A stretch of 41,420 nt of DNA, from contig JAQVTR010000011.1 of assembly GCA_028699915.1 (NCBI GenBank), positions 1 through 41,420 of the forward strand, read 5' to 3'. The DNA is from Fidelibacterota bacterium (lineage in GTDB: Bacteria > Fidelibacterota > Fidelibacteria > Fidelibacterales > Fidelibacteraceae). Both the position numbers and the translations under genes were made by a program. Positions 7,841 to 17,502 of this stretch are shown piece by piece (the stretch's first letter is position 1; each line of letters opens with the position of its first letter). The notes under the pieces were generated by a model, which was not told the origin of the DNA, made no database searches, and was given only the letters and a program-made list of their open reading frames with translations.

Positions 7841-9168
7841 TGTATGCTCCGTTCTTTGGTCATTAATTGGTTCAGGGATTTTTTCAATCCTTCCACAGCA
7901 ACATTGTACTGGAAAAGCGATGATATGTAATTGGAACGTGAAGAAATGTAGGCGCTTTCGGTGCTCATAAGCTCCAGCTGGGTCGCGGAACCGGTTTCAT
8001 AAAGCAGCTTGGAAAGCCGCAGAGCCTCTTCGGCCTGAGAAACGACATCCGCAATGGCCAAAACATTGGAGTGGGTTTCTTCCACTTTGCGGATTGCGGC
8101 ATCCACGTCGCTGTTTACATAATCGGCAACCTGTTCATAACGGTAATTTGCCTCTTTCAGTCCGAGCCCCGCTTTCTGGATCCCGGCGGCGTTCTTCCCG
8201 CCGTTAAAGAGCGGAAGCGAAACGCTCAGCGATACGTTGGAACTGCGACGGTATTTCAGGTCAGCAAACGCATCGGCATTGCCCTGCCATTGCAGGGCGG
8301 AAGCGACCTGCACTTTGGGCAGAATGCTGCTGTAGGCCAAATTCCGCTGAAAGCCCGCCAGTTTTTTCTGCTGCTCGGCCATCTGCAGATCGAGCCGGTT
8401 TTGCAATGCCTTCTCCAGCAAAACGTCTCCCGAAATTCCGCTGAAGGGATTCGGGATCTGTTCCAGTCTTCCGTTTACCCGGATCTCTTCAAGCGAGGGA
8501 TCGTTGATATAGGTCTTAAGATTATTTATGGCAGAGATCTTCTGGTTCTTCAGCGAGATAAGCTGCGGCTTGTAGGATTCATAACGGACCTTTGCCTGCA
8601 GTACATCCAGACGGGTGGCTTTCCCCACCGCTTCCAGGGTCAGGGCAAGTTCGTAATTTTCACCGGCAGAGGCCAGTCCGGTTTCGGTCGCATCAACCAG
8701 CGACTCCAGCATTTGCACCTGGTAATACAGGACCCGGATGGTATGCACGATCGTGTTTATCTGGTCCTGTAGACTGAGTTCGGACAAATTGACGGCCGCC
8801 GTAGCCATTAGCTGTCCGTTAATGATAGCGCCGCCGGTAAAAACAGGGTAGGATAACTGGATTCCGGTGGCGGAATTGAACTGCTTGCCCATACGGATCT
8901 CCATCGGAGGATTCGGGCCGTCACCGTCAAGGTCGATCACATTGACGGGAAGCTCAAAATTATCCGTTATCTGGTAGTAGGAAGTAATGGAGGGAAAAAA
9001 ATTCGCCAGCGCCTCCCGGCTTGATGCCCGGGATCTCTGCAGGGATGCTTCCGAGAGCTTGATCTGCAGATTGTTTTGCAGCGCCAGTTTCTCAGCTTCC
9101 TGAAGACTGAGCTCACGGGCGGAAAGCAGGGTGGCGGTTAAGAGGATCAGTAAAAACATTTTCTTCAT
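7837..9168 (-). CDS. TolC-family outer membrane efflux channel
   Basis: A 443-residue protein with a cleavable signal peptide (MKKMFLLILLTATLLSA). Two OEP domains follow, starting with RELSLQEAEKLALQNNLQIKLSEASLQRSRA, the typical TolC opening, and a second half beginning near LLEKALQNRLDLQMAEQQ. Long Ala/Gln-rich coiled helices and beta-strands with aromatic residues fit a trimeric outer-membrane channel with a periplasmic tunnel. Both ends overlap their neighbours by ATGA, so the regulator, channel and adaptor genes are translated as one coupled unit. Confidence 0.92.
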   Translation of the reverse strand: MKKMFLLILLTATLLSARELSLQEAEKLALQNNLQIKLSEASLQRSRASSREALANFFPSITSYYQITDNFELPVNVIDLDGDGPNPPMEIRMGKQFNSATGIQLSYPVFTGGAIINGQLMATAAVNLSELSLQDQINTIVHTIRVLYYQVQMLESLVDATETGLASAGENYELALTLEAVGKATRLDVLQAKVRYESYKPQLISLKNQKISAINNLKTYINDPSLEEIRVNGRLEQIPNPFSGISGDVLLEKALQNRLDLQMAEQQKKLAGFQRNLAYSSILPKVQVASALQWQGNADAFADLKYRRSSNVSLSVSLPLFNGGKNAAGIQKAGLGLKEANYRYEQVADYVNSDVDAAIRKVEETHSNVLAIADVVSQAEEALRLSKLLYETGSATQLELMSTESAYISSRSNYISSLFQYNVAVEGLKKSLNQLMTKERSIQ

Positions 9169-9755
9169 GATGATGCAAAACCTCCTTGAATCAATTGTAT
9201 CAGGTATTTAACATGTTCGTCCGTTTTCAGGCGCGACGATGTCAGATGTTTCATTTTCGGACCGGTCGTATGATGCAGCATCCCGGTTATTGCAGAGGCC
9301 AGAAGATCGACCGGGATATCGCTGCGCAGCTCGCCGTTCTTCACGCCTTTTTGTACCATTTCCCGTACCGCATTCTGCAGACGGTTGAAATAGTTGTGTA
9401 AAATCCTTTTACTGTTTTCCAGATCGAAGCTTTGGGATACGATCATTTTAAAAAGCCGGAAAGTGTGGGGATGCACGGAAGAGAAATTGTACATCCCGGC
9501 GATCATTTGTTCCAGTTTTTCCCGGAAAGGAAGATCCCCCGCGGCGAGTTTTTCCAGATCCGCGACCATTTGATCCAGTGAACGGGACAGACAGGCGCTG
9601 AATATCTCGGCTTTCCCCGGGAAATGATAATACAGCGCCGCTTTGGTAACGTTCAGGGCTTCGGCGATCTCCCGCATTGAGGTTCCGCTGTAGCCGCGTT
9701 CCGAAAAGATCGCAACGGCGGCATCCAGGATCTTGTTGTATGTCGTTTCCGGCAT
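9165..9755 (-). CDS. TetR-family transcriptional regulator of the efflux operon
   Basis: A 196-residue protein. The N-terminal helix-turn-helix is clear: KILDAAVAIFSERGYSGTSMREIAEALNVTKAALYYHFPGKAEIF, matching the TetR_N consensus in length and spacing. The C-terminal ligand-binding domain is divergent, as usual. I chose the ATG at 9755 (MPETTYNK) because GGAG lies 7 bases upstream. The longer frame to 9839 would run through the palindromic operator and the promoter. It is the first gene of the operon and overlaps the channel gene by 4 bases. The operator 19 bases before its start suggests autorepression, relieved by a pump substrate. Confidence 0.92.
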   Translation of the reverse strand: MPETTYNKILDAAVAIFSERGYSGTSMREIAEALNVTKAALYYHFPGKAEIFSACLSRSLDQMVADLEKLAAGDLPFREKLEQMIAGMYNFSSVHPHTFRLFKMIVSQSFDLENSKRILHNYFNRLQNAVREMVQKGVKNGELRSDIPVDLLASAITGMLHHTTGPKMKHLTSSRLKTDEHVKYLIQLIQGGFASS

Positions 9756-9773
9756 TGGGACTCCAGTTTTGAA

Positions 9774-9789
9774 CTTACCGAACGGTAAG
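9774..9789. promoter_or_regulatory. Palindromic operator, probable TetR-family binding site
   Basis: CTTACCG-AA-CGGTAAG is a perfect inverted repeat with 7-base arms around a 2-base centre, 18 bases before the regulator's start codon. ACCG/CGGT palindromes of this size are typical TetR-family operators. It overlaps the predicted -10 box at 9787-9792, so binding would block RNA polymerase. Confidence 0.75.
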
Positions 9790-9815
9790 GTAGCGGAAAA
9801 AGTTCCACAGGGCAA
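9787..9815 (-). promoter_or_regulatory. Predicted promoter of the tetR-tolC-MFP-RND operon
   Basis: On the minus strand there is a -35-like TTGCCC (9810-9815), a 17-base spacer, and a -10-like TACCTT (9787-9792). The match is moderate, but the spacing is ideal and the -10 box overlaps the palindromic operator. Confidence 0.5.
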
Positions 9816-9864
9816 GAAAAAAAGAAGCGGGGAGGACAACGGGAGGCGGAGTGTCGGAAAGGGG

Positions 9865-9921
9865 GATCGGAAGACCTTAGGGGCTTCCGATCGTCAATCC
9901 AATTGAAGATTGGATTGACGA
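9865..9921. other. Two adjoining stem-loops in the tetR-metY intergenic region
   Basis: The first hairpin pairs GATCGGAAG (9865-9873) with CTTCCGATC (9884-9892) around a 10-base loop. The second pairs 13 bases at 9891-9903 with 9909-9921 around the 5-base loop TGAAG. Both stems are perfect and they share two bases, so they cannot be fully formed together. No T-run follows, so simple terminators are unlikely. Confidence 0.6.
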
Positions 9922-9976: not shown

Positions 9977-10191
9977 AGAGCACCCTGCAACTTGCATTAT
10001 TTCATCTGCCGGCGAACAACGCAGATTAATAAATAACTTCCTTACACTCAAGTTCAATCCTAATGTCAGCTGCTGACGGATATTCAAAATATTCCGGACC
10101 GGCAAAAAAGCAAAGATCATATTACAGAAAAGCTGAAATGCTCAATAATCGCAAGGAAATACATGTATCTGTTGTGCATTTATAAAAAATG

Positions 10192-10218
10192 TTGACATTC
10201 TGCAAAAAGAAATATAGC
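10192..10218 (+). promoter_or_regulatory. Predicted promoter of the metYA leader
   Basis: A perfect consensus -35 box TTGACA (10192-10197) is followed after 15 bases by TATAGC (10213-10218). An alternative -10 is TAGCTT at 10215-10220, with 17-base spacing. Transcription would start near 10225, about 70 bases before the leader ORF and about 210 before metY. Confidence 0.6.
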
Positions 10219-10295
10219 TTTTAACGGTTTTAAAGCATTGACGGAGAAACGCTGCAATGGTACCGCAATATATGAACACAGTAAAAGGAAACGCT

Positions 10296-10340
10296 ATGAT
10301 GGGCATGTGCCGTCCGTTCTGGTCCGCCGTTGCTTTCTGA
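10296..10340 (+). CDS. Candidate Met/Cys leader peptide (14 aa) of a metYA attenuator
   Basis: A short ORF encodes MMGMCRPFWSAVAF and ends in TGA at 10338-10340. AGGA lies 6 bases before the first ATG, a good ribosome-binding site. Three of the first four residues are Met and the fifth is Cys, which is striking for an ORF lying between a promoter and a terminator hairpin upstream of methionine biosynthesis genes. The downstream codons TCC GCC GTT contain the antiterminator arm. By analogy with trp, his and thr leaders, a ribosome stalled on the Met codons would leave that arm free, while one that reaches the stop codon would cover it. No homolog is known to me; the function is inferred from position, composition and folding logic. 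Confidence 0.6.
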   Translation: MMGMCRPFWSAVAF

Positions 10341-10378
10341 TGTAATATTTCATATAAAACAAATAAAACGCCGGCGGA
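10323..10378 (+). promoter_or_regulatory. Predicted antiterminator pairing of the metYA leader
   Basis: TCCGCCG at 10323-10329, inside the leader ORF, is perfectly complementary to CGGCGGA at 10372-10378. The latter overlaps the 5' arm of the terminator (10371-10375), so the two structures are mutually exclusive. A second competing pairing is possible between GCCGG at 10385-10389 and CCGGC at 10401-10405. Pairings were found by eye. Confidence 0.5.
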
Positions 10379-10394
10379 GATAAAGCCGGTTTTT
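10371..10394 (+). terminator. Candidate intrinsic terminator (attenuator) upstream of metY
   Basis: CCGGC (10371-10375) pairs with GCCGG (10385-10389) around a 9-base loop, followed directly by TTTTT at 10390-10394. The stem is short (5 GC pairs plus a possible G-U), as suits a conditional terminator. It lies 44 bases before the metY start codon, between leader ORF and gene. Confidence 0.6.
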
Positions 10395-10437
10395 GATATC
10401 CCGGCAATTATTGCACAAAAAAAAAGAAGGGAGATCA

Positions 10438-11715
10438 ATGAAGAAAAAAACCCGGGGATTTGATACAGAGCAGGTGCATGCGGGACAGCGTCCGGATCCG
10501 CTTACGGGAGCCCGCGCGGTACCGATCTTTCAGACCACTTCCTACGTTTTTAAAAATTGCGAAGAGGCGGAGGCACGCTTTAACATGAGTACGCCCGGCG
10601 ACATCTATACACGCATATCAAACCCTACCACGGCGGTCTTTGAAGAGCGCATGGCAGTGCTGGAAAAAGGGTCCGCTGCGCTGGCCCTTGCTTCGGGATC
10701 TGCTGCGGTGGCTTACGCGCTTATGAATCTTGCGCAGGCCGGTGATGAGATCGTGGCGGCGGAAACGCTGTACGGAGGAAGTTATAACCTGCTGGCCCAT
10801 ACCCTGCCGCGCTATGGGATCCGCACGCATTTTGTCGATCCCGACAAGATCGGGAATTTTCATGCAGTCGTTAATGAAAAAACCAAAGCCATTTTCATCG
10901 AATCACTGGGGAATCCCGGTATCAATATTGTTGACTTCGATGCTCTATCCGCGTTTGCACGATCCTGCGGCATTCCGCTCGTTGTGGACAACACGTTTGC
11001 CACACCCTATCTCTTCCGTCCCTTCGAGCACGGCGCGAATGTTGTTGTGCATTCGGCGACCAAGTTCATTGGCGGGCACGGAACTTCGCTAGGCGGCGTG
11101 ATCGTTGACGGCGGAAATTTCGACTGGTCATCTGGGAAATTTCCGGGTTTCACGGATTGTGATCCGGGCAATCACGGAGCCCCCTTTGCCGATCTTGGCA
11201 ACATCGCCTTCGTGACCAGGATCCGCGCCGAACTGTTGCGGGATCTGGGTGCCGCACTGTCGCCTTTTAATGCCTGGCTGTTTTTGCAAGGACTGGAAAC
11301 ACTGTCCCTGCGGGTGCAAAAACATGTTTCAAACGCAGAGCGGGTGGCGGGATTTTTGGAAGAGCATCCCGCCGTGGAAAAGGTCAATTATCCCGGATTG
11401 AAAAGCAATCGCTATCATGCCCTGAAAGAACGGTATTTCCCCCGCGGCGCGGGTTCCATTTTTACCGTTTCCCTGAGATCAAACCTGCAGGGAGTACGGA
11501 AATTCATTGACAGCCTGGAGCTCTTCTCCCTGCTTGCCAATGTCGCCGATGCTAAATCCCTGGTCATTCATCCCGCAACGACTACCCATCAGCAAATGCA
11601 ACCTGAAGCCAGGCTTAAGGCCGGCGCCGGACCCGAAACAATTCGCCTTTCCGTCGGACTGGAAGATCCCGCGGATCTGGTCGCGGACCTGGAACGGGCG
11701 CTGAACAAGATTTGA
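10438..11715 (+). CDS. metY: O-acetylhomoserine sulfhydrylase (Cys/Met metabolism PLP enzyme)
   Basis: A 425-residue PLP-dependent enzyme of the Cys/Met metabolism family that makes homocysteine from O-acetylhomoserine and sulfide. Visible motifs are TTSYVF near the N-terminus, YTRISNPT (phosphate contact from the neighbouring subunit), [19 protein letters not shown], and [15 protein letters not shown] with the PLP lysine in SATK. The conserved tail includes [13 protein letters not shown] and IRLSVGLED. The length and the 55-residue insertion around [13 protein letters not shown] match O-acetylhomoserine sulfhydrylases rather than the shorter MetB or MetC. Start chosen at ATG 10438, preceded by GGGAG; an in-frame ATG at 10393 lies immediately after the terminator run and lacks a site. 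It is followed by metA 25 bases later. Confidence 0.93.
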
Positions 11716-11740: not shown

Positions 11741-12664
11741 ATGCCGATAACCGTACCCAAAGGACTTCCGGCCATTGAAGCGCTGCAAAAAGAGAATATC
11801 TTTGTCATGGATAAATATCGGGCGGAACATCAGGATATCCGCCCGCTGAGGATCCTGATCCTGAACCTGATGCCCACAAAATCGGACACGGAAACCCAGC
11901 TGGTCCGCCTGCTGAGCAATTCGCCGCTGCAGATCCATGTCGAACTTTTGCACATGGCCAGTCACGCGTCCCGGCACACCCCGATGGAATATATCCTTAA
12001 ATTTTATAAAAATTTTGATGCCGTAAAAGGCCAGCGTTACGACGGCATGATCATCAGCGGCGCACCGGTGGAGCATCTGGATTTTTCGAACGTGGATTAC
12101 TGGCCGGAACTTTGCCGGGTGATGGATTGGTCACGGAATCACGTTTACTCCGTTCTGCATGTCTGCTGGGGCGCCCAGGCAGGACTTTTTTATCATTTCG
12201 GGATCCCGAAATACAATCTTCCGGAAAAAATCTCGGGCATTTTCAGGCACAAGGTGCTGAATCCGGCGCATCCGCTGCTGCGGGGATTTGACGACCAATT
12301 CAGCGCCCCGCATTCCCGCTATACCGAAGTGCGGGCTTCCGATATCGAAAAGATCCCGGAACTGGAAATTCTGGCCCGGTCACGGGAAGCCGGAATTCAT
12401 CTTGTTGCACGAAACAACGGGCGGCAGTTCTTTGTTACCGGACATTTTGAATATGAGCGCGATACTCTGGCCCGGGAGTACAAACGCGACATCAAAAAGG
12501 GGATGCATATCGCGCCACCCCGGCATTATTTTCCCGGGGACGATCCCTTAAAAAAACCGGAAGTCAGATGGCAAAGCCACGCTTTTCTTTTTTATTCCAA
12601 CTGGCTGAACTATTTTGTATATCAGGGAACGCCGTATGATCTGGAGGAACTGAAAGGGGTTTGA
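11741..12664 (+). CDS. metA: Homoserine O-acyltransferase, predicted O-acetyltransferase (MetA family)
   Basis: A 307-residue protein, full length for MetA, which activates homoserine in methionine synthesis. The catalytic Cys142 is in HVCWGAQAG, and His235 and Glu237 in GHFEYE, all at the canonical positions. Residue 111 is Glu (GAPVEHL). In characterised MetA enzymes Glu at this position goes with acetyl-CoA use and Gly with succinyl-CoA use, so this should make O-acetylhomoserine. That fits its partner MetY, which consumes O-acetylhomoserine. It is in one transcription unit with metY (25-base gap, GGAA before the start). Confidence 0.95.
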
Positions 12665-15139: not shown

Positions 15140-17502
15140 ATCAGGGAAACGGGGTCCCGGTTAATGATAATGCTGACGTTTTTTTCTTTACGTCGCGCTT
15201 TCAGGTAAATTGGCAGCAGAACGGCAGCGCTTCGGTTGCCGTTGGGATCCTGTTTGCGGTCCGCTTTGATCAGAATCTGCCAGCGGGTTTTGTTCTGAAT
15301 GCGTTCGATGGGCGCCGGTGCGGGACCCAGACAGTGCCGGGGGTCGATCTTGCCGCTGATCTCCCGGTAAATACGTCCCGCTGCGGCTTCGACTTCGGCT
15401 GCGGAAGTCCCGCTGACGCGGATGAGAAAAAGCCGGCTGAATGGCGGATAGCTCAGATTTTTCCGCTGAAACAATTCAAGATTGTAGTATTCCTTCAATT
15501 CCAGATTGGCGGCCATCCGGATCAGGGGCTCTTCGGGATTAAAAGTCTGGATCAGTACCTGGCCGGGGTATTTTCCGCGTCCGCTACGCCCGCTGACTTG
15601 ATAGATTAGATGGAAAAGGCGTTCACCCGCACGGTAATCGGGAAAGCTCAGCCCGATGTCCGCATTGATGATTCCCACCAGCGTTACATTGGGAAAGTCC
15701 AGGCCTTTTGCGATCATCTTTGTTCCCAAAAGGATATCGTAGCGCTGTTCCTCAAAATCGGTCAGGATACGCGCATGCGCGTGCCGGGTCCGCGTAGTAT
15801 CCATGTCCATACGGGCGATTCGCGCCTGCGGGAAGGCGACCTGAAGTTCTTCTTCGATGCGTTGGGTGCCGCTGCCCGTTGGCTTCAGGGTTTTCGTGCC
15901 GCAGTGTGGACATTCACGGGTCAGAGGATAGCTGCTGTTGCAGACGTGGCAGAGCAGTTTATTGAGGCGCTTGTGGTAAGTAAGCGAAACGGAGCAGGCA
16001 GGGCACTGTAAAACGCGGGCACATTCGCTGCAGACCATCAGCGTATGGTAACCGCGCCGGTTCTGAAGAATAATGACCTGTTTGCCCTTTTCAAGCGTAT
16101 GGTAAACGGCCTCCAGCAGTTTTTCGCTAAAGAGTCCGCGCCGCGGCGTTTCCCGCATGTCGATCAGGCGAACGCGTGGCAGTTTGGCTTCGCCGTAACG
16201 CCGGGTGAGTTCCAGCCGCTTGTAGCGGTGAACGGCGGAGAGATAATAGGATTCCAGGCTGGGGGTTGCGGAGCCGAGCAGAACGGGGATATTGAGAATG
16301 TGCCCATACATGACGGCAGCGTCCCGAGCATGGTAGCGAGGAACGGGTTCTTCCTGCTTGTAAGTCGCCTCCTGCTCTTCATCCACAACGATCAGGCCGA
16401 TATCCGGCAGGGGAGCAAAAAGTGCGGAGCGCGCTCCAACCACGACCCGTATCGTGCCGCGCAGCATCTGGTTCCAGGTCCACAGGCGTTCCGCATCGCG
16501 CATCTGGCTGTGCCAAATGGCGACCTTTTCGCCAAATGCCGCTCTGAAACGCGCTGCGATCTGCGGGGTAATGGCAATTTCCGGGACCAGCATCAGAACG
16601 CTGCGGCCTTTTTCCAGCTGTTCGCTGGCAAGGCGTATGTATATTTCCGTTTTACCGCTGCCGGTAATTCCGTGCAGCAAAACCGGGTAAAAAGAGTTTT
16701 CGTGCTTTCGGATGTGCTTTAAAATGCGGTTTTGCTCTTCGGAAAGCAGCACTTTATCGCGCGGAGCGGGCGGAAAAAAATCAAAGGGATCCGCCGGAAC
16801 CTCCATCTCACATTGCTCCAGAATGCCTTTTTCGACCAGCCTTCTTACAACACCGGTACTGATGCGGAGTTTTTTCAGGAGGATGCGCAGCTCCTCGACC
16901 GGACTGTCCAGAGAAGCCAGCAAATTCACCAGCGACTGCTGCTTTGGCGTAAGTCCCGTTGCTGATTCGCGGAGGCGAATAGCGGCAACCTTACGTAAAT
17001 TTTTGCTCGGAGGAAAAATATTGTCTATATAAAGCCGCCCTTCGGCGATCCCGGCCTTGACTGCCTTGCGACGCAGTTCCGGGAGTCCCGTAAAATCCAG
17101 GGAAGATAAGCCTTGCGGCGGAATGTCGGGCCACTTTTCCGGATCTTCGTGGGGTGCTACGAAACAGTATTCCTGCCGTTTGTAGCCAATTTCGGAAGGA
17201 TGCGCCGCCCGGAAACAGAGGCCCGGAGGCGCCATATAATATTCGGAGATCCAGCGGAGGAGCTTGATGAGCGCAGCGCTGAAGATTGGTTTGTCATCAA
17301 AGACGTTTTCGATGCTTTTCAGGGGATACGCGGGCTTTTCCGGGAGCGTTTCAAGGCACTCCAGGCAATATCCCAGTTGTGCGCGGGGACCGAACGGGGC
17401 TTTGACCCGGACACCGGGCCGGATTTTTTCGCGCAGAGCGTCCGGAATGCGATACGTAAATGTCTGATGGATATCGGCCGGGAAGGCGATATTGCAATAC
17501 AT
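15136..17502 (-). CDS. priA: Primosomal replication restart helicase PriA
   Basis: A 788-residue 3'-to-5' DNA helicase that reloads the replisome at stalled forks. The N-terminal DNA-binding domain begins MYCNIAFPADIHQTFTYRIP. Walker A is GITGSGKT at 278-285, the Walker B box reads DEEQ, and GSATPS and GSGTQRIEEEL follow. The zinc-binding region has eight cysteines in four CxxC-type pairs (VCSEC, QCPAC, LCHVC, ECPHC) near residues 485-525. The C-terminal GRAGR-like motif appears as VSGRSGR. It lies upstream of mutS2 in a two-gene operon and is divergent from the TrpR-like gene. Confidence 0.96.
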   Translation of the reverse strand: MYCNIAFPADIHQTFTYRIPDALREKIRPGVRVKAPFGPRAQLGYCLECLETLPEKPAYPLKSIENVFDDKPIFSAALIKLLRWISEYYMAPPGLCFRAAHPSEIGYKRQEYCFVAPHEDPEKWPDIPPQGLSSLDFTGLPELRRKAVKAGIAEGRLYIDNIFPPSKNLRKVAAIRLRESATGLTPKQQSLVNLLASLDSPVEELRILLKKLRISTGVVRRLVEKGILEQCEMEVPADPFDFFPPAPRDKVLLSEEQNRILKHIRKHENSFYPVLLHGITGSGKTEIYIRLASEQLEKGRSVLMLVPEIAITPQIAARFRAAFGEKVAIWHSQMRDAERLWTWNQMLRGTIRVVVGARSALFAPLPDIGLIVVDEEQEATYKQEEPVPRYHARDAAVMYGHILNIPVLLGSATPSLESYYLSAVHRYKRLELTRRYGEAKLPRVRLIDMRETPRRGLFSEKLLEAVYHTLEKGKQVIILQNRRGYHTLMVCSECARVLQCPACSVSLTYHKRLNKLLCHVCNSSYPLTRECPHCGTKTLKPTGSGTQRIEEELQVAFPQARIARMDMDTTRTRHAHARILTDFEEQRYDILLGTKMIAKGLDFPNVTLVGIINADIGLSFPDYRAGERLFHLIYQVSGRSGRGKYPGQVLIQTFNPEEPLIRMAANLELKEYYNLELFQRKNLSYPPFSRLFLIRVSGTSAAEVEAAAGRIYREISGKIDPRHCLGPAPAPIERIQNKTRWQILIKADRKQDPNGNRSAAVLLPIYLKARRKEKNVSIIINRDPVSLM

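Follow-up and report, generated by a model that had tools for sequence, protein, structure and literature searches.

A putative leader-peptide attenuator with Met and Cys codons upstream of the metYA genes in a Fidelibacterota bacterium

Results

Organization of the metYA locus

The window, i.e. the whole 41,420-nucleotide stretch of Fidelibacterota DNA that was analysed, carries the metY and metA genes, which are preceded by a promoter, a short leader open reading frame (ORF) and a terminator-like hairpin (Table 1). As both MetY and MetA score above curated cut-offs, the operon makes homocysteine via direct sulfhydrylation, sulfide being the MetY substrate. The ATG of metY is found 44 bases past the terminator, where an earlier note on this DNA had placed it. 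A TetR-type gene (9165-9839, minus strand), located upstream of metY, belongs to an RND efflux operon. A perfect inverted repeat, TCGTCAATCCAA-N7-TTGGATTGACGA, maps between this gene and metY (9891-9921), and a similar repeat is present in G001, a relative of the same genus. The repeat is a candidate TetR operator.

Table 1. Features of the metYA locus, in coordinates of the window, and putative His attenuators found in the same genus.
Feature	Position	Strand	Evidence or description
metYA promoter, probable	10192..10220	+	TTGACA 10192-10197, 17-base spacer, TAGCTT 10215-10220
Leader ORF, 27-codon alternative reading (MVPQYMNTVKGNAMMGMCRPFWSAVAF, then stop)	10257..10340	+	Upstream in-frame ATG 10257
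Shine-Dalgarno AGGA of the 14-codon leader ORF	10286..10289	+	6 bases before ATG 10296
Leader peptide ORF, 14 codons (MMGMCRPFWSAVAF, then stop)	10296..10340	+	Stop codon at 10338
Putative control codons Met-Met-Gly-Met-Cys	10296..10310	+	Footprint folding
Predicted antiterminator 5' strand (strand 2), CTGGTCCGCCG region inside the ORF	10317..10329	+	Core TCCGCCG 10323-10329
Predicted antiterminator 3' strand (strand 3), CGGCGGA	10372..10378	+	7 contiguous pairs with 10323-10329
Predicted intrinsic terminator, GCCGGC / GCCGGT, 9-base loop, TTTTT	10370..10394	+	Hairpin 10370-10390, then T-run
metY, O-acetylhomoserine sulfhydrylase, first gene controlled	10438..11715	+	TIGR01326, 608.8 bits, cut-off 495.1
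metA, homoserine O-acetyltransferase, second operon gene	11741..12664	+	NF047918 MetA_acetyl, 478 bits, cut-off 460.5
Putative unannotated His attenuator before hisG	L165 ~470-620 (G000:C45, ~15770-15920); L166-L172		Sequence

The elements named in the earlier note, which are the TTGACA box, the AGGA motif, the leader ORF, the hairpin followed by TTTTT and the TCCGCCG/CGGCGGA pairing, were all read at the positions that it gave. Its promoter holds for the TTGACA box, whereas the proposed -10 box, TATAGC (10213-10218), is spaced from it by just 15 bases. The -10 box is probably TAGCTT, two bases downstream, because hisG promoters of the genus show a 17-base spacing (TTGACA-N17-TAAATT). Neither -10 candidate was listed by a generic sigma-70 scan.

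The leader ORF with AGGA 6 bases upstream is present as described, and a second in-frame reading of 27 codons has to be added. Both frames are open in the window and in G001, and either the 14-codon or the 27-codon start may be the one used. If the start at 10257 is used, all three Met codons are elongator codons; if translation starts at 10296, Met1 is decoded by the initiator tRNA.

Strand 3 overlaps the 5' arm and the loop of the terminator. The duplex formed by strands 2 and 3 has a free energy of -12.6 kcal/mol in the window, and the terminator, at -10.9 kcal/mol (z -2.15 relative to shuffles), is predicted to be modest. The latter was missed by a terminator rule allowing loops of up to 8 bases, because its loop spans 9 bases. 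The order of features thus seen, an ORF between promoter and metY, clustered Met codons and a terminator before the first gene, is that of a leader-peptide attenuator.

Comparison with the relative carrying metYA

Within the genus, metYA genes were found in the window's genome and in G001 only, out of ten genomes compared; neither metY nor metA was detected in the remaining eight. The two MetY proteins are 84% identical, and at a dS of 1.5, with 44% identity at four-fold degenerate sites, neutral DNA is near saturation. Conservation along the leader is uneven. The promoter stretch (10180-10226) is identical in G001 at 41 of 47 bases, with TAGTTT as the counterpart of the TAGCTT box, while the DNA upstream is 40% identical. 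The segment preceding the leader ORF (10227-10277) matches at 32/52 positions, and identity rises to 16/18 bases in the Shine-Dalgarno stretch (10278-10295) and to 20/21 bases (95%) in leader codons 1-7, encoding MMGMCRP. Codons 8-15 (15/24 bases), the spacer after the ORF (13/35) and the terminator 5' arm plus loop (7/15) vary; the terminator 3' arm and the U-run are the same at 10 of 10 bases. Conservation of the Met codons in close relatives, which had been set beforehand as a test of the earlier note, is thus observed in G001 despite synonymous saturation of metYA.

The G001 leader, MMGMCRPVRTADAR, also has 14 codons. The 27-codon version is open in G001 at equal length, with no protein-level conservation in its first half. 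Both the variable part of the ORF and the 5' arm of the terminator are altered in G001, and complementarity is kept: the G001 antiterminator pairs TGCCGATGC with GCACCGGCA with one mismatch, in a similar topology made of different bases. This covariation is judged from two sequences, both from genomes of MAG quality. A search of 245 phylum genomes for a second leader copy, using a 20-base core, returned chance-level matches only, and occurrences of the leader pattern with 3 mismatches elsewhere in the genus and phylum were discarded, as their contexts denote chance.

MetY of the window's genus matches the clostridial Acetobacterium proteins at 65%, versus 50-51% for those of genus g3, which belongs to the same family and has metYA genes without a Met leader. 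Because MetY is nearer to clostridial proteins than to those of genus g3, metYA may have been acquired horizontally, the leader being either built afterwards or brought along.

Folding of the leader RNA

Leader RNAs were folded codon by codon with a ribosome footprint extending to +16 from the P-site codon. In the window, the terminator is predicted to form with a probability of 0.01-0.02 when the A site holds Met2, Gly3 or Met4 and of 0.24 when it holds Cys5; the value is 1.00 at all positions from Arg6 through the stop codon, and also in RNA free of ribosomes. The values for G001 are 0.48 (Met2), 0.15 (Gly3), 0.12 (Met4), 0.96 (Cys5), 0.89 (Arg6) and 1.00 further on. With the ribosome on Met codons, the predicted partners of strand 2 are the 5' arm of the terminator and, for its CTGG, the 3' arm. 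In the model of both species, the antiterminator 5' strand is covered when the ribosome is at the stop codon and free when it is at the control codons. Two proposals of the earlier note are borne out by these predictions: a ribosome at the stop codon lets the terminator form (probability 1.00 in the window), and a ribosome on the Met codons, though not past Arg6, abolishes it in both species. As to the control codons proposed, Met1, Met2 and Met4, the second and third lie in the responsive window, Met1 is read by the initiator tRNA if the start is at 10296, and Cys5 has to be added.

A second, kinetic measure, the pairing of the terminator 5' arm at a stage when the 3' arm has yet to be transcribed, was adopted because the equilibrium measure is always terminator-on for the E. 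coli leaders, which have strong terminators. In E. coli thrL and leuL, the kinetic measure drops once the ribosome is past the control codons; in the window it does so past Arg6, and in hisG leaders of the genus right past the His codons. In E. coli hisL, the footprint model hardly separates control-codon from stop positions. A 1:2 pause/protector hairpin is predicted in both species (z -0.16, not significant, in the window; z -2.18 in G001), and the leader folded as a whole does no better than shuffles (z -0.50).

When the entire segment was shuffled with dinucleotides preserved, both measures were matched in 2/500 cases for the window and 4/500 for G001; this is a generous control, in which the GC-rich strand is diluted by the AT-rich spacer. 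When codons 8-14 were shuffled alone, a stricter control, the switch was reached in 48/1000 (window) and 12/1000 (G001) cases. The 7-bp pairing of strands 2 and 3, taken alone, is weakly better than chance because both strands are GC-rich. Duplex strength was dropped as stand-alone proof, since about 7-9% of strand 2 shuffles (472/5000 in the window, 350/5000 in G001) pair as well. The pairing alone being modest evidence, the case rests on its combination with conservation and position, codon content and recurrence in independent genomes.

Leaders upstream of other genes

The regions upstream of metY in assembled genome contigs and in the phylum included 31 stretches with a terminator-like hairpin. 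Met/Cys leaders were defined as ORFs ending shortly before the hairpin and featuring at least three Met and at least four Met plus Cys residues in ten codons. Four of the 31 stretches match (the window, G001, G025 and L063), versus 0.10 expected from shuffles. The independent matches are G025, from another family of the phylum, and L063, a Flavobacteriales bacterium, since the search started from the window, to which G001 is related. Conservation in G001 together with this enrichment of ORF plus terminator at metY places the leader as a whole, judged by sequence, above chance.

The leaders of G025 (MNTHCQMVSNLCMMCMMKDCV) and L063 (VIKQTVCCMMCMMWKFPQGHCMQ) both contain CMMCMM with flanking Cys residues. 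The G025 region reads as a textbook four-strand attenuator, in which strand 1 (CCAAATGG) is followed by strand 2 (CCATTTGGTGAG, just past the stop codon), strand 3 (CTCACCAA) and strand 4 (GGTGAGCC plus a T-run). The antiterminator switch of L063 is not significant (27/500 shuffles). As peptides, the Met/Cys leaders have nothing in common but Met/Cys runs, and they therefore fit the prediction of codon sensing. Elsewhere in the phylum, CMMCMM marks a leader only in G025, and the single-mismatch matches, including one in the genus-mate G030, are intragenic or unrelated.

No similar leader was found upstream of metH, none upstream of ilvB, which is closely preceded by another gene, and viral contigs hold no relatives. 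The metY genes of Bacteroides and Phocaeicola likewise lack a leader; in its place there is a divergent Lrp-like gene, which is annotated in one of the two. L079 (MPMCMCR) and L003 were left out of the count, their terminators being doubtful. In L079, a Bacteroidales MAG, an ORF ending in QPMPMCMCR at the stop codon precedes metY (195-261). The long hairpin after it (AAATCCTTTT/AAAAGGATTT) has a weak T-run, and the ORF is a possible further Met/Cys leader. In L003, a Ruminococcaceae MAG, a Met/Cys-rich ORF of 41 aa (MKNKKLMCEAGMMCGKMCSTAMCGIAYMPMCNSKYERQCLL) with a Shine-Dalgarno motif lies upstream of metY (~2764-2890), and the T-run of the hairpin is poor.

In four mycobacterial regions (L065, L080, L053 and L073), very short Cys/Met ORFs (MRSPHMCRCC, MCMCQ and similar) are located between an apparent SAM riboswitch, recognised by eye, and metY, which suggests a riboswitch and a sulfur-codon leader in tandem. 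L048, a Flammeovirgaceae MAG in which a SAM-I riboswitch is followed by an ORF ending in QCCCC at the stop codon just before metY (2534-2720), is read as another tandem, of riboswitch and Cys-codon leader.

In the eight genomes of the window's genus that were examined, a His leader lies upstream of hisG and in most cases ends in HHHTAP at the stop codon (e.g., MKHQLHIVHHHTAP). The antiterminator strand of these leaders, GGGAGCCGGGAT, sits at the stop codon, and their terminator, ATCCCGATTCCCTGATTGAATCGGGATTTTTTTT, is strong. Since the hisG leaders are of attenuator design, the lineage appears to use ribosome-mediated attenuation.

Discussion

We regard the metYA leader as a ribosome-mediated transcription attenuator of the trp/his type, which would sense charged tRNA-Met and probably tRNA-Cys, and give this reading a probability of about 0.84. 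The parts, their conservation and the independent relatives are drawn from sequence, and the switch comes from modelling. The interpretation, already advanced in the earlier note, gains support from the conserved Met codons, the modelled switch, the his attenuator of the genus and the independent Met/Cys leaders before metY. When Met-tRNA is plentiful, the ribosome would reach the stop codon and cover strand 2, so that the terminator would form. Under a shortage of Met-tRNA (or Cys-tRNA), the ribosome would stall on Met2, Met4 or Cys5, so that strand 2 could pair with strand 3 and with a portion of strand 4, and RNA polymerase would read into metYA. Termination is predicted if the leader is not translated. 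Severe methionine starvation would also lower initiation, favouring termination, if the start is at 10296. The leader may respond to sulfur amino acids in general, because Cys5 falls in the responsive window and the related leaders all mix Met with Cys.

An attenuator of like design that responds chiefly to cysteine, or to both residues as a gauge of sulfur supply, would resemble the cysteine leaders of mycobacterial cys operons and alphaproteobacterial cysS; it is an unlikely but serious variant. Cys5 adjoins the Met codons, sulfide is the MetY substrate, and mixtures of the two residues recur in the CMMCMM leaders of G025 and L063, in MCMCR of L079 and in the S. lividans metL leader (RCMCRRMC). 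Yet the window leader has three Met codons versus one Cys, and the terminator is already predicted to form at equilibrium with Cys5 in the A site, in part in the window (0.24) and nearly always in G001 (0.96).

It is improbable that the ORF is conserved for another route, either arrest by the nascent peptide in response to methionine or SAM, or translational coupling, the terminator merely setting a basal level. Arrest peptides are often conserved in sequence, as is the MMGMCRP block, where conservation is strongest and includes Arg-Pro. With a start at 10296, however, a peptide of five to seven residues would hardly reach into the exit tunnel, the leaders of G025 and L063 share Met/Cys codons and no peptide motif, and the terminator/antiterminator geometry suits stalling.

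An unrecognised riboswitch binding SAM or methionine in the 5' UTR is highly improbable. SAM-I does occupy the position upstream of metY in five phylum genomes from other families (L118, L119, L120, L122 and L128) and in several Clostridia, but none was found in G000, G001, G025 or other relatives (21 genomes searched), nor in the one genus g3 member examined. At the window, no Rfam family exceeds its gathering score, and the leader has no match to Rfam at relaxed thresholds, to SAM aptamer covariance models or to the T-box model. In addition, the segment before the ORF is poorly conserved, the conserved block consists of the Shine-Dalgarno motif and the first codons, and the overall fold is no better than shuffled RNA. 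A chance juxtaposition of a terminator and a meaningless ATG-rich ORF is disfavoured to the same degree: although a 7-bp pairing is not rare in itself, codons 1-7 are conserved at 95% versus 44% at neutral sites, and leaders with terminators at metY exceed expectation (4 versus 0.10).

Textbook attenuators respond to tryptophan, histidine, threonine, leucine/isoleucine-valine and phenylalanine, and the control of methionine genes is credited to MetJ/MetR, SAM riboswitches and T-boxes. The attenuator proposed here has the order common to the trp, his, thr, leu, phe and ilv systems (promoter, ORF, antiterminator strand near the end of the ORF, terminator, biosynthetic operon), and differs from them in its Met (plus Cys) control codons and in the metYA operon that it precedes. 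Under the same model, it switches as E. coli thrL and leuL do, hisL switching only weakly; unlike the E. coli leaders, it has a weak terminator, and the predicted switch is nearly complete at equilibrium. As modelled, the metYA leader thus follows the classic attenuator design and is new in its amino-acid specificity. The SAM-I riboswitch (S box, RF00162), absent at the metYA leader, senses SAM by an aptamer, and a methionine T-box would sense uncharged tRNA-Met by terminator/antiterminator switching, whereas in the metYA leader the ribosome and the codons would be the sensor.

The earlier note had called a Met leader-peptide attenuator unusual, and we found no fully equipped example for a methionine gene in the open-access literature. 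The one methionine leader peptide found there is a prediction, the metL leader upstream of metNIQ in Streptomyces lividans TK24, named methionine-dependent (PMC8079986). This leader, MSTTSDRTPATEATTTPGARCMCRRMCAF, is short and contains Met and Cys codons, like that of metYA; it differs in preceding a transport operon, in being leaderless and, according to the authors, in having no typical intrinsic terminator, and the passages on it give no antiterminator or conservation analysis (PMC8079986). Mycobacterial cys operon leaders also carry sulfur amino-acid codons in a short leader, but the codons are for cysteine, the genes are others and no terminator is conserved (PMC1262725). The alphaproteobacterial cysS uORFC-8-2 motif combines a short sulfur-codon leader with an intrinsic terminator, as does metYA, although with cysteine rather than methionine codons and before a different gene (PMC8632094). 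A survey of Actinobacteria reports that methionine operons yielded no conserved RNA structures (PMC1262725), and the 5' UTR of the Xanthomonas met operon is ascribed to a SAM-I riboswitch (PMC6230763, PMC7270179).

The odds seem even to us that Met/Cys leaders with terminators before metY form a recurrent class, present in more than one phylum (the window's and Bacteroidota) and replacing SAM riboswitches. If so, methionine synthesis would be set in these bacteria by tRNA charging, not by SAM. If the attenuator reading of the metYA leader is true, related lineages swap the signal that controls metYA, some families using SAM through a riboswitch and the window's genus tRNA charging through a leader peptide. 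It would also extend translation-coupled control to the amino acid that starts every protein, and raises a question of design, namely whether such a sensor can work while initiation itself falls.
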